A stretch of DNA of 41,241 nt from Desulfocapsa sp. (GTDB lineage: Bacteria > Desulfobacterota > Desulfobulbia > Desulfobulbales > Desulfocapsaceae): contig JAQYVF010000042.1 in NCBI GenBank assembly GCA_030145625.1, positions 1 to 41,241 of the forward strand, written 5' to 3'. The position numbers and the translations under genes were made by a program. The notes under the pieces are model-generated. The model had not been told where the DNA came from and did not search any database. It saw nothing but the letters and a program-made list of their open reading frames with translations. Shown piece by piece: positions 21,205 to 36,624 of this stretch. Each line of letters opens with the position of its first letter. Position 1 is the stretch's first letter.

Positions 21205-21255
21205 GATGAAGAGAGGTGCTGCATAAATCAATCAACAACAAGTATCACCCTCCAG

Positions 21256-21734
21256 GCAGGAGCGGTTTCAACCGCGAACAAGCCACCTCACTGTGCATAC
21301 AGATCGGCGGGTCATGCCGACTCCGATTTCGCGGATAAATCCGCTCCTACAGGATATAGTGGCCACCTGGAAGACTATGTGACTGCAATACAGTAGAGAA
21401 CCAAGTAGGAGCGGTTTCAACCGCGAACAGGCCACCTCACTGCGCAAACAGATCGGCGGGTCATGCCAACTCAGATTTCGCGGATAAATCCGCTCCTACA
21501 GGATATAGTGGCCAACTGGAAGAATATGTAACTGCAATACATTAGGGAACCAAGTAGGAGCGGTTTCAACCGCGAACAGACCACCTCACTGTGCAAACAG
21601 ATCAGCGGGTCATGCCAACACCGAGTTCGCGGATAAATCCGCTCCTACAGGCCATAGTGGCCACCTGGAAGACTATGTGACTGCAAAAACATTAGAAAAC
21701 CAAGTAGGAGCGGTTTCAACCGCGAACAGGCCAC
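21256..21734. repeat. Tandem array of REP-like doublets (three full units and one half) downstream of icd
   Basis: Units at 21256-21350, 21405-21499 and 21554-21648 each start GTAGGAGCGG-TTTCAACCGCGAA and end in the inverted partner (TTCGCGGATAAATCCGC-TCCTAC). A half unit at 21704-21734 abuts the icd stop. The period is 149-150 bases. Each arm also folds alone: GCGGTT/AACCGC and GCGGAT/ATCCGC, which differ by paired changes. The ~50-base linkers are similar too, so whole units were duplicated. The first copy has C instead of T at position 2. This is a REPIN/BIME-like family; no transposase gene is in the window. Confidence 0.88.
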
Positions 21735-24326
<2,592 letters not shown>

Positions 24327-24712
24327 GTAGGAGCGGTTTCAACCGCGAACAGACAACCCACGCTGCTCAAACAGACCAGCGGCCCGTGCCAACACCGATT
24401 TCGCGGATAAATCCGCTCCTACAGGTTAGCTCAAAGACTACGGTACCTGCAAACGTTGCGGGAGCAGGTAGGAGCGGTTTCAACCGCGAACAGCACCCCA
24501 CACTGCTCAAGTAGACCGACGGCCCGAACCAACACCGATTTCGCGGATAAATCCGCTCCTACAAGAGAGAGTGTTTAACTGGAAGACAAGAGTGACTGGA
24601 AACTCTAGGCAACCTGGTAGGAGCGGTTTCAACCGCGAACAAGCACCCCACTCTGTTCAAACACACCGGCGGCCCGTGCCAACACCGATTTCGCGGATGA
24701 ATCCGCTCCTAC
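24327..24712. repeat. Second array of REP-like doublets (three full units) between icd and the LysE gene
   Basis: Units at 24327-24422, 24468-24562 and 24617-24712 have the same paired arms as the array at 21256-21734, with periods of 141 and 149 bases. The inner spacers are about as similar within this array as to the first, but carry array-specific changes (for example GGCCCGTGCC against GGGTCATGCC), so each array expanded locally. It ends about 50 bases past the LysE stop. Confidence 0.88.
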
Positions 24713-24758
24713 AAGAGAGCACGTTTTTTCTCGTGGGGAAATCAGATTATCCGTTCCT

Positions 24759-29423: not shown

Positions 29424-31523
29424 CTACACCTTAAAGCGCCCCACCATCTCTTTGAGTTGTTCAGCAAGCTGGCTCAAGTCCCTGGCACTCACATTCACCA
29501 TTGAACTGCTGTTGGATATTTCATCAGTAGACTGATTGACTTCGGAGATATCCCTTGTAATCTCGCCTGCAACGGCAGAACTCTGGGCCACAGTCCCTGT
29601 AATCTCCTGGATTCCTTCTGAAACCTGAACCACATTACCGGCGATCTCGCTGGTTGTCACAGACTGCTCCTCCACAGCAGCGGCAATGGTGGATACAATG
29701 TCACTGACATCTTTGGACACCCCTGAAATCTTAGCAATCTGGGTCATCGTCTCTTCAGTTGAACTCTGAATTCCCTGAATCTTAATCTTGACCCCTTCCG
29801 TAGCTTGGGCTGTCTGAGAGGCCAGCGCTTTAATCTCGGATGCCACCACTGCAAATCCCTTTCCGGCTTCACCGGCCCTGGCCGCTTCGATGGTGGCATT
29901 TAAGGCCAACAAATTGGTCTGTGCGGAAATTTCAGCAATGGTCTCAGTGACCTTACCTATTTCCTGAGCAGCTATTCCCAGTTCATCCACTTTTTCAGAG
30001 GCACTTTCAGCATCAGTGACAGCCTCATGGGTAATGGCAATCGCCTTCTCACTATTTTGGGCAATCTCGTTGATTGAGTTCGTCATTTGTTCAGCAGCGG
30101 TAGCTACCATGCTCACATTGGTGGCAGCCTGTTCCATTGTCGCAGCCACCGAGCTTATGGTTGTATTCATCTCCTCAGCGGCACCGGAAACCGCATCGGA
30201 CTTTTGGAACATGGTACCGGCACCTTCGGACATTTTACCGGACAGGTCAGAAAGATGTTCGGATGAGGAACTCAGTGTTTCAGCACTATTTGCAATATCC
30301 TTCAGGATCGTATGAAGTTTTTCTATAAAGGAATTAAAGCAGTGTGTCAGAGCTCCGATTTCATCGTTGCTGGTTATGTCAATTCGTTTGGTAAAATCGC
30401 CACTCTCCTCGATTTCCCTGACCATATCAGACAACCCTTTAATGGGCCGTACAATGCTCACAGCTATGGCCAATGAAACAAGTACTAGAACAAACAGCGA
30501 TATCGCACCAATCCCGAAGAACCAGGTCCGCACACTTTTTTTGGTCTCATTCCCCAAGCGATGCACAGTGTTTTGCAGTTCAACGATTTCATCTTCAGCA
30601 ATTCCAACCCCGACTGCGCCGATTTTTTCGCCGCTTGAAGATATGATAGTTGAAAATGCAGTGACATATTGCTTTCCGGCAAGTGGCAGAAGAATGTTAA
30701 CCGTCTTGTCAGCTTCATATATTGTAGAAAGGGCGCTGGAGCTTAACTGAAGGCTGTTTGGATTGACACTCTCTCCAAGCCCAAAACCTGCATGGGCAAT
30801 GGGAATGGAATCAAGATACAGTATCCCGGCAGAACCGAGTACCTGATATGTCTGCTTGAGGAATTTATCATAGCTGTTAAGCAGTTTCCCCGTAATACAT
30901 GCCCCAACCGCATCACCGAATTCATCGGGAATGACGGTCAGAGAGGCAATGGCAATTCCGCCTTGCCCGGCAATACTTCGCTCTTTCAATCCTAACTTCC
31001 TGAGAAAAGCTGCATCATACCTGGAGACAACATTCAGTCCCGCTGCATCCCCTGAGAGAGTACCATTGACACTCGCCTGAACAATTTTATCCCCGTTCAA
31101 AGAATCAAAATAATCTTCCACCGTTCTTTCATCGATACTTCTTGGAAAGGATGCCTGGAGTTTTCCCTCAACATCATACACCAAGGCAAAGTCCGCCCCT
31201 GCAGATACGCAAGATTTTTGTAACAATCCTGAAAGATTACCCAGCTGCTGACTCTCTATGTTTTTAGCGGTAGCCGGATCCTGGCTTATTTTATTCGAAC
31301 TGCGCCAGACATCTTCTTTGACATCATCGATAAAGGACTGGAGCAATTCATTGTGGCTGGCCAAGGTTCTGCCGGTCCGGGCCATCATATCTTCTGCAAG
31401 TAATTCCGACTGATGTGAAATTCCTTCACCAAGTTCCCAGGATACCAGTCCAATTGTAATACAACCAACAATGGTTACGGCAGCAAGAAAGCTAACGAGT
31501 ATCTTGTATTTTATGCTTTTCAC
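29424..31523 (-). CDS. Methyl-accepting chemotaxis protein with periplasmic Cache-like sensor
   Basis: 699 residues. TM1 is near 10-30, followed by an extracytoplasmic sensor of about 300 residues that looks like a double Cache domain ([50 protein letters not shown]), then TM2 (about 345-365), HAMP and the signalling hairpin with [39 protein letters not shown]. The last residues (KEMVGRFKV) resemble the second MCP. GTG start with AGGAG. The gene follows the PstS-like gene, after a terminator, so it may take signals from that binding protein, but this is inference. Confidence 0.92.
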
Positions 31524-31618: not shown

Positions 31619-32410
31619 CTAAAGTGGTGTTGCGCCGGCTTGCTTGATCGCATCATGGGAAGATGGGGAGCTGGCGAATTCCACAAGATTTTTGATATTG
31701 CCACTCTTATTCTTTTCTTTGAAGATAAGGGCAAGAGTACCGGCATAGGGATAATCTGAATCAGTGGCCAATTTGCCTTCGATGGTCAAGATCTCGACAC
31801 CGAAATTTCTGGCATTGGCATAGGTACCGAAAGCGATGGTGTCCGCTTTCTTCTCGGCCAACTCACAGGTACTTGGATCACTCAATGTTGTTTTTGATTT
31901 TGAGGTCAGGGTAATATCTGCAAATCCGGGGAACGATTCAAGCAACACGCTCAGAGAACTGTCACCATCTTCACGCCTGATCACCCTTATCTTGGCATCT
32001 TTCCCACCGACATCTTTCCAGTTGGTAACCTTGCCACTGTATATGTCACAAATCTGTTGAGTGGTCAGATCTTTTATTCCAACGCTCTTGTTTACAAAAA
32101 AGACGATGGGATTCTTTGCATAGGGGAAATAGGTAAGGCCATAGGGTTTCTCTTTATCTTTAATCCCTCTGGCCACACGACCAATGACATTCTTATCAGT
32201 ACCGACAGCCTTCATGCCGCCGCCTGAGCCAATACTCTTGGGAACAACTACGGTCACTCCAGGATTATTCTGACTAAAAGCCTTTCCAACAGCCTCAATC
32301 ACCGACGAGCCACTGCCTGTACCGACAATGGTGATCTCTTCCGCCTGAACCTGGCCGGAAAAAAACAAACAAAGAACCGATACTGCAAGACCTACCATCG
32401 ACTTTTTCAT
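31619..32410 (-). CDS. PstS-like periplasmic substrate-binding protein without ABC partners
   Basis: 263 residues from the ATG at 32410 (GAGGAG upstream). Signal peptide MKKSMVGLAVSVLCLFFSGQVQA, then a mature protein beginning EEITIVGTGSG. The phosphate-binding family pattern is visible: GSGSSVIEAVGKAF, PKSIGSGGGMKAVG, NPIVFFVNKSVGIKDLTTQQICDIYSGKVTNWKDVGG, and IRVIRREDGDSS. No permease or ATPase gene is nearby; instead two MCP genes flank it. It may bind phosphate or another oxyanion for sensing rather than uptake. Its long leader (32411-32916) is shared with the next MCP gene upstream. Confidence 0.88.
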   Translation of the reverse strand: MKKSMVGLAVSVLCLFFSGQVQAEEITIVGTGSGSSVIEAVGKAFSQNNPGVTVVVPKSIGSGGGMKAVGTDKNVIGRVARGIKDKEKPYGLTYFPYAKNPIVFFVNKSVGIKDLTTQQICDIYSGKVTNWKDVGGKDAKIRVIRREDGDSSLSVLLESFPGFADITLTSKSKTTLSDPSTCELAEKKADTIAFGTYANARNFGVEILTIEGKLATDSDYPYAGTLALIFKEKNKSGNIKNLVEFASSPSSHDAIKQAGATPL

Positions 32411-32752
32411 TCTTTTCTCCTCATGTTTCTTATGGTCATCACATAACCTTTGCCAAAAATGAGACCTCTCAGAAAGCGGCCTCACCCCCTTTTTTATCAA
32501 CCCAACTATCTTTGTCGTATCACCACCTCCAGCGATTTTCAAAACAAAAAAAATGGATGTTTTTTGAGTGTCTTAAATTTACTTACGAGTAAATGCTAAT
32601 TATCTCACTCCTTTTTCTTGTCACCTGTTTATGTCATATGTAGGCAACCTGGTCCAGTAGCAAGAATCAGGTTTACGGCAGTACAAAAAGGAAAAAAACC
32701 TCAGCAGTCAGCGACTATGAAAAGCAGTCCTCAGGACATTGAGGCAGTTCTT

Positions 32753-32784
32753 GAATGAGTAAATGAGTAAATGAGTAAATGAGT
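32753..32784. repeat. Four tandem 8-bp units (AAATGAGT) in the leader
   Basis: GAATGAGT followed by three AAATGAGT. The other leader has just one comparable unit near 36060. The tract is outside any gene, so copy changes would alter spacing, not a reading frame. Confidence 0.75.
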
Positions 32785-32883
32785 GCACCCCGCAAAGAAG
32801 ACAGCGTGTCAATGTCTCTTTACAAAAAAAGAAACCTCAAATGACCAGGAATAATACGGTAAGGAAGAGACAGGCGAAAACCG

Positions 32884-32915
32884 CCATAACTACTACAGAG
32901 TAGTATGGTTTTTTT
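32884..32915 (+). terminator. Plus-strand hairpin with T-run at the far end of the leader
   Basis: CCAT-A-ACTACT, loop ACAG, AGTAGT-ATGG, then seven T. It would stop plus-strand RNA coming from inside the leader region. No plus-strand gene is upstream of it, so an antisense or small RNA is possible. Confidence 0.4.
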
Positions 32916-33127
32916 AAATAAATTAGTTTGAAAATATGAGATTCAGGCAAATCAGATGGAAGAAACAGTGCCTTGATACAGCTCCTGCTTCTTTTACCCG
33001 GAGAAGAAAAAACATCTTTTCATTATCAAACCGGCACCCGTTGACACGAACCAATGGGCAAGTCTGTTTATCTTGGTGTCCACGCAAGATTTCACAAAAG
33101 TGCAACCGTGCATGGCTGCCCCTCTCT

Positions 33128-33143
33128 TTAAGGGTACCTTGAA
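33128..33143. promoter_or_regulatory. TTAAGGGTACCTTGAA motif between the second MCP and the leader
   Basis: Matches the palindrome at 1509-1523 and the minus-strand motif at 24161-24174. The 32917-33428 stretch has no credible gene. Confidence 0.35.
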
Positions 33144-33321
33144 AAATTAGATTTTTCGTTCAAAATTGAGGCATGAGGGAAATTTTACCGCAGGCATATG
33201 CTTGATATTCCGAGGATATAATTTTCTTCATAACGAAGAGTTTGGGCGAAAAGGCAATTTTGCAAGGTGGCCTTAACTCTATATCTCCTAATCTTGAGAA
33301 TGCACTTCGTTCCAACTCAAA

Positions 33322-33352
33322 GGCAAACCTGTTTGCAGGAAACAGGTTTGCC
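33322..33352 (-). terminator. Perfect 13-bp hairpin downstream of the second MCP
   Basis: GGCAAACCTGTTT and AAACAGGTTTGCC around a 5-base loop. It lies about 80 bases past the MCP stop. Only TTTGAG follows on the minus strand, so it is a weak intrinsic terminator or an RNA 3'-end stabiliser. A 7-bp inverted repeat (CAAGGTG/CACCTTG) also overlaps the MCP stop. Confidence 0.5.
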
Positions 33353-33428
33353 AGCCTATCATAGGTATTGCGGAATTACTGATAGTCATTTGTTATTGAT
33401 ACGTTTTCCAACACAAGGTGGCCACAAG

Positions 33429-35666
33429 TCACACCTTGAATTGAGCCACCATGCTTGTTAATTTTTCAGCAAGTTCACTCAACTCTTCAGCACTTACATT
33501 CACCTGCGCACTGCTGGAATTAATTTCAGATGATGCCTGCCCAACTTCAGCTATGTCAACGGCTACTTGTGCGGTCACGGATGATGCCTGATTTACATTC
33601 TCATTGACTTCCTGGATACCTTGTGAAGCCTGGGATACGTTATCAGATATCTCCTGTGTTGCATTTGCCTGCTCTTCAACAGTTACCGCAACGCTAGACA
33701 CCATTTCATTCACTTCCTTTATAATTGCCGTAATTTGGGTAATTTCGGTAACTGACTTACCACTTGCATCTTGAATACTTGAGATTTTATCTTTAATGTC
33801 TTTAGTAGCATCAGAGGTCTGTTTTGCCAGATCTTTAATTTCATTGGCTACAACAGCAAACCCCTTACCAGCTTCTCCAGCTCGTGCCGCTTCAATTGTT
33901 GCGTTCAAAGCTAGCAGGTTTGTTTGCTCGGAAATCTCAGTGATCGTTTCCGTCACTTCACCAATTTCCTGGGCTGAAACACCAAGTTCATTAATTTGTT
34001 CAGAGGCATTCTCAGATTGAGTAACGGCAGTTTTGGTAATAGAACTTGTTTTCTCGGTATTTAATGCAATTTCTGTAATGGTGGTAGACATCTCTTCAGA
34101 TGCAGCTGCAACCATATTTACATTTACCGACGTTTCTTCGGAAGCTGCAGCAACAGAATCCATATTCACACTCATCTCCTCAGCTGCTGTAGCAACAGTA
34201 TTTGCCTTGCCGGTTGTCTGCTCTGCATTGGCTGACATCTGGTTGGAAATTGCTGAAAGCTCGGTTGATGCAGAAGATAATGTTTGCACACCAGTTGCAA
34301 TATCCTTAAACATTGTCCGAAGCCTTGCAGTCATATTGTTTAGGGAATCAATGAGGGAACCTGTCTCATCCTGACTCTTACTCTCCACGCTGAAGGTAAG
34401 GTCACCATCTGCTATTTTTTCAGCTAGTTGGACGCCATCCCGGATGGAGAGGACAATGCTGCGAACGACAAAAACAACCAAGATTGCCAAGCCTAAGAGA
34501 ACGATACATGAGACAACAACGGTAACAAGAAGAGTACGCTCGGCAGCGGTGTTAGTTGCTATCTGTTTTGCATGTCTACTCTTCTCGGCCAGCTCAACAA
34601 TCTGTTCTACCTCAGGTTCAACCTTATGCACGGCCTCTCCCATCTCAGCACTCAACGTTTTGATCAACTTATCGTTGTCCACCAGGGCCAAAAAACAATC
34701 CTTGTACGTATTCAGTTGGTCACTAACGGCCTGTAGGTGCTTTTTTGCCACCTTATTGTTATCAAACCCCTTGCGCAGTTTTTCAATGGCATCCAGAGTC
34801 CCACTTACATACTTAGGATCGCGGCGCAGAAGGTAATCCTTCTCGTTTTTACGGATATCGAGAAGCATGGCCTTGGCGTCCTGAACGTATATGGAACTAA
34901 GCGACTTCTCAATGGTATGTGCAACTTCACGGATGCTCTTATATATATCGGGCTCGTCAAACTGAATAAAAGAGTTGGCATCGTTTTGATACCTGGCGAT
35001 TTCACGAATCAAAGCCTCTTTTTCCTTAGGATCATATTCTTGAGTCGTGATCAGATCGCTGAGAGTTTTGATGGCAGACAACCATTTTTTTTCATATTTT
35101 TCGCTCCTGGCCAGATAGAAATCCTTTTCATACCTACGTATCTGGAGTAAGGCCACATCAAGGTCGGCGACTTGATGATCCTTAAGATCTTCAGCCAATT
35201 TGTGGGCGCTATCACGAAACTTGCCCTGCAGGCCTGACTTATGATCAAGGCCAGTGTTCTCCCAGGCTTTACTAACAGCTAAAAACTTGGCCTTATAGAG
35301 ATCGATATTATGAATGATTGCTGATGCCATTACGCCGATTTCACTCTCCGAACCAGCCAAATCGATAATCTGTTTTGCCTCATTTTCTACCAAGGTCACA
35401 GTATCTGTGACGCGCTTGACATATTTTTTATCCTTTCTGAGAAAAAAATCTTTCTCAGAACGGCGGCACTGGAGCATCTGGATATCAATCTGGTCAGCAT
35501 GCTCGACAATGGCTACATCTTGATCCAGGAGAGATATGTAATTGTTCTCCATATCTTTTACAACAAAGACATTTGTAATGAGGATAGCACAGGATGTGAG
35601 GATCAATGCACCCATAACCCCCCCGAACTTGATGAAAAGATTGGCCCTTTTCCAGAGAGTGATCAT
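33429..35666 (-). CDS. Methyl-accepting chemotaxis protein with helical (HBM-like) sensor
   Basis: 745 residues. TM1 (about 12-32) and TM2 (about 375-400) bracket a long all-helical periplasmic region. That region contains three copies of a similar motif: [32 protein letters not shown] and [16 protein letters not shown]. The motif resembles helical bimodular (HBM) sensors that bind small organic acids, but with three copies. HAMP and a normal signalling domain follow ([39 protein letters not shown]). A perfect AAAGGAGGAAACT lies before the ATG. Its start overlaps the stop of a 23-codon ORF. The ligand is unknown. Confidence 0.92.
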
Positions 35667-35734
35667 AGTTTCCTCCTTTCATGAAACACACCACCAAAAA
35701 CTGCGATTTTTAAATAGTCTATTTGCTTTGGCAT
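35663..35734 (-). CDS. Short 23-residue ORF coupled to the second MCP
   Basis: Starts at an ATG with AGGAGG upstream and reads [17 protein letters not shown] and six more residues; its TGA overlaps the MCP ATG. By alignment of the two leaders, its ATG occupies the same place as the start of the PstS-like gene. It may be a leader peptide, or the relic of a binding-protein gene removed by deletion. Not known from any family I recognise. Confidence 0.5.
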
Positions 35735-36200
35735 TCTTTCCTCCTAGGAATATGTGGTGCCTTTTGTTATTAACAAAATTATTGCCAAAAATGATGCCCC
35801 TCAGGGAACGGCCGCTCCACCTTTTCTATCAACTCAACTATCTTTGTCGTATCACCATCTCCAGCGATTTTCAAAACAAAAAACCGACTCACCGCCTACC
35901 ACATTTTTTGTTAGATTTTAAGTAAATACCCAACAATCCACCCCCTTTAAATTGTCACACTCTCATGTCACAATTCAGTGACCTTATCCATCAGAAAGAT
36001 CAATTCTACAATGGTACAAACAGGTAGAAATAAAAATACTAACGCATTGTTTGAACAAATAAATGAGCAGATAAACGGACCCCACAAAGAAGACAGTGTA
36101 CTATTGTAGATTTATCAAACAAGAGAACTCGAAGGAGCAGAACAGACACTACAAGAACAGGACAGGCATAAAGCACCCCAACTGCCACAAAGTATCATAT
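35735..36200 (-). promoter_or_regulatory. Leader of the second MCP, paralogous to 32411-32916
   Basis: Carries the second copy of the 57-base core (35827-35883) and the terminator-like hairpin (TCCC-TGA-GGGG before ATCATTTTT). The farther part also aligns, for example around CCCCACAAAGAAGACAG at 36080 against CCCCGCAAAGAAGACAG at 32788. There is no gene in it. Confidence 0.5.
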
Positions 36201-36624
36201 ATTCCATCAATAATATTTCTTCTTATTATTACGATCCTGTCAGGCTTTTTGATAACCAATACCCCTTGATTGCCATCCTAATTCGGGGTAAAAAGCAAAA
36301 TTGACCTTTTTCCTGACCCAAAATCCTACTGATGAAATTTTTTCCAAATCCCATGGAAATCCGTCCCCCTCAGCCAGAACAAGTTTTTTATGCGAACAAG
36401 GCTTGTGGCTTTACCACCAATAATGATTACTCTTTCTACTAGCCTTACTGCAGCACCTGAGGCCAATGGTGGCACACTCTGATTTTGTCTTCACAGGTGC
36501 AACCACACACAAAGTGCTCATGCTGACTGACCAATAAAGCATACAAATAGAACTGCCCTCTCATGAGCCTTTGCCTTTATACCTTGACTGCCAGAAACAT
36601 TATTCTCAACGCAGGGAGGCCAAA
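36201..36624. other. Gap upstream of citrate synthase
   Basis: No gene is seen. GCACCTG (36453-36459) and CAGGTGC (36494-36500) form a 7-bp inverted repeat. I could not assign a promoter with confidence. Confidence 0.4.

Follow-up and report, generated by a model that had tools for sequence, protein, structure and literature searches.

The window, i.e. the whole stretch of 41,241 nucleotides of Desulfocapsa sp. that was analysed, carries on its minus strand a gene for a PstS-like binding protein together with two chemoreceptor (MCP) genes:

29424–31523, minus strand: MCP1 (HAMP and MCPsignal domains), directly 3' of the binding-protein gene
31619–32410, minus strand: binding-protein gene (PBP_like_2, PstS-like), 263 amino acids, PF12849 at 113 bits
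33429–35666, minus strand: MCP2 (HAMP and MCPsignal domains), upstream of the binding-protein gene and MCP1

The closest solved structures of the binding protein are phosphate-binding proteins. Its score for the PstS family NCBIfam TIGR02136 was 86.2 bits, under the curated cut-off of 206.6, while the PF12849 threshold was reached. For the sensor part of MCP2 no Pfam match was obtained at its cut-off. The order of binding-protein gene and MCP1 recurs in four loci of other genomes (L035, L036, L037 and L043). A binding-protein-dependent chemotaxis unit is formed in Pseudomonas aeruginosa by PstS with CtpL (PMC4926252). Compared with that unit, the window is alike in having a PstS-like binding-protein gene beside a chemoreceptor gene, and unlike in that a second receptor, MCP2, shares the leader but not the sensor domain.

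Furthermore, repeats were noticed in and beyond the window. Positions 33131–33273 hold a dispersed repeat of ~143 bases with inverted ends (AGGGTACCTTG... / ...AAGGTGGCCT), which folds into a single long hairpin (166 bases at −54.4 kcal/mol). Among the stretches examined there are 8 distinct near-full-length copies, about 88–93% identical to the window copy, and further partial copies, one of them at 77% in the related genome G007; the repeat is MITE-like and apparently abundant. A second repeat, ~187 bases long and likewise bounded by inverted ends (AGGGRCTGTAAGAAAATAACATG / CATGTTATTTCATTACAGGCCCT), occurs at 95–98% identity in L271 (140–329), L278, L279 and L280 (about 1383–1572), and its likeness to the box described below covers at most 14 bases. 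Two arrays of ~149-base units, at 21238–21734 and 24309–24720 of the window and about 3 kb apart, have AGGAGCGGTTTCAACCGCGAACA in common.

Two copies of a non-coding leader

The intergenic regions before the binding-protein gene (leader 1) and before MCP2 (leader 2) contain related stretches, equally oriented and separated by 3.3 kb:

32440–32551 and 35772–35883, minus strand: leader copies 1 and 2, differing at 17 of 112 positions
32551–32495 and 35883–35827, minus strand: core, identical at 55 of 57 positions
32552–33000, minus strand: upstream part of leader 1, weakly like leader 2 (35884–36340) and G007, with 0 of 200 shuffles in both comparisons
35663–35734, minus strand: open reading frame of 23 codons closing the MCP2 leader; its stop codon and the start codon of MCP2 overlap

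The two leaders are 88% identical over 102 bases (83% over 123 bases in a second alignment), and the identity drops on either side. The initial annotation, which had described two diverged intergenic regions with a nearly identical 57-base core, is thereby borne out. Weak similarity extends further upstream, where ~450 bases 5' of the core gave a global score of 19 between leaders 1 and 2, compared with a shuffle mean of 2.5 (sd 1.7) and 0 of 200 shuffles reaching it.

The segment 32440–32551 / 35772–35883 is non-coding. Codon positions 1, 2 and 3 hold 8, 6 and 3 of the 17 differences, consistent with the earlier remark that substitutions fall on the first two positions as much as on the third; only one of the 12 changed codons is synonymous, and one of the other 11 becomes a stop. 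Both the spread over codon positions and the nonsynonymous and stop changes indicate a leader segment without protein selection. The objection that the core might lie inside coding sequence, raised already in the initial annotation, does not apply, and of its proposal that RNA rather than protein is selected, the absence of protein selection holds, and the RNA role is weakly supported. A protein-coding core was considered in the form of an in-frame extension 5' of the binding-protein gene (TTG at 32542) and was rejected, as it shows neither protein selection nor a Pfam match.

At the downstream end, AGGAGGAAAGAATG of leader 2 aligns with AGGAGAAAAGAATG of leader 1, where the binding-protein gene has its ribosome-binding site and start codon. 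The 23-codon reading frame thus corresponds to the binding-protein gene in its ribosome-binding site and first codons, and judged from this alignment it is likely a relic of that gene's start. In the simplest history, a copy of the control region that included these codons would have come to lie before MCP2.

The box as a candidate promoter

Within the core lies a shorter element, hereafter the box, with the following features:

32514–32544, minus strand: box copy 1, TTTTGAAAATCGCTGGAGGTGGTGATACGAC, of whose first 28 bases 25 are identical in G007
35846–35876, minus strand: box copy 2, one base off copy 1
32542–32537, minus strand: putative −35 (TTGAAA) of box copy 1
32519–32514, minus strand: putative −10 (TACGAC) of box copy 1, with a 17-base spacer and TG before the −10
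32411–32507, minus strand: predicted 5' UTR of ~97 nt for the binding-protein gene, its start site placed from the −10 position

A search of 144 genomes with up to three mismatches found the box three times, in two genomes: twice in its own (G000) and once in G007. Twenty of the genomes searched are of this genus, and the operon is present in two. G007 belongs to the same genus and carries the same binding-protein/MCP1 pair at locus L035 on JAHIUA010000098.1, its binding-protein gene being 81% identical in protein and 79.8% in DNA. In both genomes citrate synthase is found on one side of the binding-protein gene and MCP1 followed by a phospholipase-like reading frame on the other. At the place of MCP2, G007 has a histidine kinase and a universal-stress-like reading frame, and the MCP2 sensor part has its best match in G007 on a different contig, at 32% identity.

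Of the leader, the ~28-base box alone is clearly kept in G007 (25/28). The ~90 bases 3' of the box, hairpin included, show shuffle-level similarity, 214 of 500 shuffles scoring as high. Upstream of the box leader 1 resembles G007 (0 of 200 shuffles), while the similarity of leader 2 to G007 is not significant (86 of 200). Consequently, the concern of the initial annotation that the core might not recur elsewhere is answered in part: the box recurs, the sequence 3' of it does not. The box is absent from seven further leaders of binding-protein relatives (L036–L041 and L043; proteins 36 to 47 or more percent identical to the binding protein), the best of which, L037, was reached by 5 of 100 shuffles; reading-frame lists covered L035, L036, L037 and L043, and L038–L041 were compared by leader alone. 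Among the weak DNA matches that were read, L023 is the orthologue and L025 and L027 are unrelated. Short repeats with a period of 8 bases occur in the same leader part of both genomes, TTACTCAT at 32733–32810 of the window (minus strand) and CATTCACN at ~3640–3680 of L035 in G007.

A scan with a sigma-70 matrix, whose frequencies are assumed values, placed the box at the top of all three leaders (TTGAAA, 17 bases, TG-N, then TACGAC or, in G007, TACCAT), first among 2554 scored sites in leader 1 and among 2874 in leader 2. The scores themselves are ordinary in G000, as they were reached by 361 of 500 shuffles for copy 1 and 408 of 500 for copy 2 (14 of 500 for G007). After removal of the extended −10 bonus the box stayed first only in G007, the best site of both G000 leaders lying elsewhere, and its first rank in these leaders is partly owed to a poor neighbourhood. 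It was also unlisted by a simple consensus promoter scan, which returned 4 promoter-like sites compared with 8.5 in shuffles, because its −10 has no final T. The position of the box is a stronger argument for a promoter than its matrix score: it stands at −132 from the start codon in leader 1, at −208 in leader 2 and at −126 in G007, so that 25 of 28 bases are kept at a similar distance (−132 and −126) in the two species while the ~90 bases behind them are unalike. The box is like ordinary sigma-70 extended −10 promoters in its TTGAAA, its 17-base spacer and the TG one base before the −10; it is unlike them in that the −10 of G000 agrees with TATAAT in just three bases (T, A and A) and that the spacer is unusually conserved.

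Promoters of the sigma-28 (FliA) type follow the consensus TAAA-N15-GCCGATAA and those of the sigma-54 type TGGCAC-N5-TTGC. The former gave no match with up to three mismatches at either box copy. The latter matched with 2 mismatches at 35772–35787 and not within 3 mismatches at 32440–32455, and sigma-54-like matches occur at chance rate (194 vs 194.3), so that neither type fits in the consensus scans. In Geobacter, sigma-28 and sigma-54 promoters were predicted for chemotaxis genes (PMC2577667); the present case is alike in concerning the regulation of such genes in related bacteria, and unlike in that the box has no sigma-28 match and sigma-54-like matches stay at chance rate. Given its matrix position and the misfit of sigma-28 and sigma-54, the likeliest reading of the box is that of a promoter, as predicted from its sequence. 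A leader peptide within the box (GGAGG followed by GTG) was rejected as unsupported, the 2-base spacing, judged by eye, being too short.

Some points count against the promoter. Besides the ordinary scores, the missing entry in the consensus scan and the upstream dissimilarity of leader 2 and G007, the box is found in two species only, and the 88% likeness of the copies runs some 50 bases past the predicted start site, beyond what a promoter needs. The last observation calls for a further explanation, which gene conversion between the two neighbours or a 5' UTR function confined to this species would supply. Recent conversion as the source of the whole 102-base like stretch, with a core under no special selection that says little on function, fits the small distance of 3.3 kb, the common orientation, the fall of identity on both sides and the restriction of the ~50 bases after the box to the two window copies. 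Nevertheless we regard it as unlikely, since the box is kept in G007, beyond the reach of conversion with the window copies; selection must accordingly act on at least ~28 bases of the box.

Folding of the leaders and the RNA-switch reading

The initial annotation had likened the leaders to an attenuator or riboswitch. On such a reading a promoter would lie upstream, the core would serve as sensor and the next hairpin as terminator. Two structures bear on this:

32464–32477 (copy 1 equivalent) and 35796–35809 (copy 2), minus strand: hairpin pointed out in the initial annotation
32460–32484, minus strand: stem of seven base pairs in copy 1 ahead of a run of five T, −9.7 kcal/mol alone and −11.6 kcal/mol with the inner hairpin

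Several observations would suit such a switch. The copies stay 88% alike past the box, the stem of copy 1 with its five T reaches −11.6 kcal/mol once the inner hairpin is included, and the first-mentioned hairpin pairs in both copies. Moreover, six pairs can form within the box around a GGAGGN loop, a stem that all three sequences retain with two one-sided changes, and the best 61-nt stretch of copy 1 (z −1.78; 8 of 200 shuffles fold as well) and the G007 leader (z −1.80) fold better than most shuffles. Against this stands the fate of the same structures on comparison. The stability of the hairpin is only −1.2 kcal/mol in copy 1, before the binding-protein gene, compared with −4.7 kcal/mol in copy 2, and a scan for terminator-like pairing listed copy 2 (35809–35796) but not copy 1. 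Its 5 of 5 kept pairs with one double change are matched by 247 of 500 shuffles, a figure that refers to two sequences. Of the earlier description, the T-A to C-G exchange and the T run, five bases long, are real, while a hairpin beyond chance is not supported. Three of the seven pairs of the copy 1 stem are broken in copy 2, and copy 2 folds like its shuffles (z 0.83 for the counterpart of the 61-nt stretch; whole leaders −1.20 for leader 1 and 0.39 for leader 2).

Rfam searches at the gathering score returned no match in the window or in the orthologous locus L035, in agreement with the initial failure to recognise a known riboswitch motif, and at E up to 10 only far sub-threshold matches appeared, e.g. 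Phe_leader with 17.4 bits compared with a cut-off of 55. The covariance model proposed earlier, built from the two copies, recovered in the own genome just these copies and one E 7 match in a coding region. Kept structure with covariation beyond chance was not seen in what is a weak test on only two or three sequences, nor was a transcribed core conserved in the orthologues, the part 3' of the box being unalignable in G007 and the box being absent from all 7 further leaders. Compared with the riboswitches and attenuators of Rfam, the leaders are alike in length, hairpin and T run and unlike in family match and kept structure. An attenuator or riboswitch is therefore unlikely; the earlier idea of a regulatory leader common to chemosensory genes fares better and is supported in its non-coding form.

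A different RNA role would have the box itself transcribed from a promoter further upstream and acting as RNA through the stem AUC-N3/GGUGAU and its exposed GGAGGN loop, which we consider very improbable. On this reading the box would be a lineage-specific site for an RNA-binding regulator, for instance of the CsrA type, or for a small ligand, and its duplication with the leader would have put the second chemoreceptor under the same control. The evidence for a new RNA switch is weak, and the RNA finding does not stand.

Spacer conservation and origin of the MCP2 control region

The spacer of the box is conserved as well as its hexamers, which suggests reading by a regulator or a special holoenzyme. 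An operator within the promoter spacer, bound by a dedicated regulator of a small chemoreceptor regulon, is compatible with a duplicated promoter and a sharper form of that explanation; we regard it as unlikely. Of the 19 MCP domains in the own genome, 18 upstream regions were taken in (the two leaders, C156 and 15 stretches, one of them too short to score and one of 75 bases; C18 was left out). On contig C156 a weak third copy, CTGGAGGGGGCGAAA, stands ahead of another MCP gene, at a distance of 360 bases. Its matrix score of 12.7, reached by 1 of 200 shuffles, compares with 49.1 and 47.6 for the window leaders and with −12.3 to 1.9 for the 14 other scored regions; 1 of 200 over 15 regions is, however, about the chance expectation, and the C156 box has no −35. 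The earlier suggestion to look for the core before other MCP genes thus led to one weak site. The site is partly preserved at a similar place before the C156 orthologue of G002 and before one of the two in G007, but in G002 it is only the second best in its 1500 bases and the second G007 paralogue is without it. The C156 gene itself (L216, G000:C156:17000–21500) encodes an 860-aa MCP-like protein with a C-terminal extension, the box-like site at −360 being partly kept in two related genomes.

A sequence model of the box gave a match (E 0.0076) before a MASE10-HD gene, where GGTGATA is kept in G007. Beyond the three boxes this model yielded 56 weaker matches (E up to 1) in 20 genomes. Among the 13 viewed in context, two are intergenic in the own genome (C122 and C156) and the 11 others are coding or overlap a reading frame, a split that is approximate and depends on the reading-frame lists. 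The match on C104 lies between reading frames, ~490 bases before a DnaA-like gene. Patterns were of little help: the spacer dyad AATCAC-N8-GTGATA is useless with 390 matches in the own genome compared with 230 in the control, and the box pattern YTGGAGGNGGYGAWA, drawn only after C156 had been seen, gave 35 compared with 15, most of the 30 classified matches lying in reading frames and 4 in a separate repeat. The C156 and MASE10-HD sites are leads only towards a wider regulon.

On balance, a duplicated promoter region with a 5' leader that co-expresses two chemoreceptor units is the probable explanation. In its favour are the same neighbourhood in both genomes, the start of the binding-protein gene seen in leader 2 and the homology of the upstream leader parts. 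An ancestor would have acquired, before the chemoreceptor gene MCP2, a second copy of the region controlling the binding-protein/MCP1 operon, reaching from roughly 450 bases 5' of the core to the first codons of the binding-protein gene. The promoter would be the best-kept part, with a TTGAAA-like −35, a weak −10 and, between them, 17 bases of spacer that end in the TG of an extended −10, and the kept spacer may be read by a regulator or special holoenzyme. A common signal would then govern both transcription units, and translation of MCP2 may be partly coupled from the 23-codon relic frame.

If the spacer site is real, it would point to a small chemoreceptor regulon with a new regulator. The duplicated promoter would present a readable case of a chemoreceptor gene brought under the control of another receptor operon, in which promoter and leader were copied together with the first codons of the old gene, now overlapping the start of the new one.
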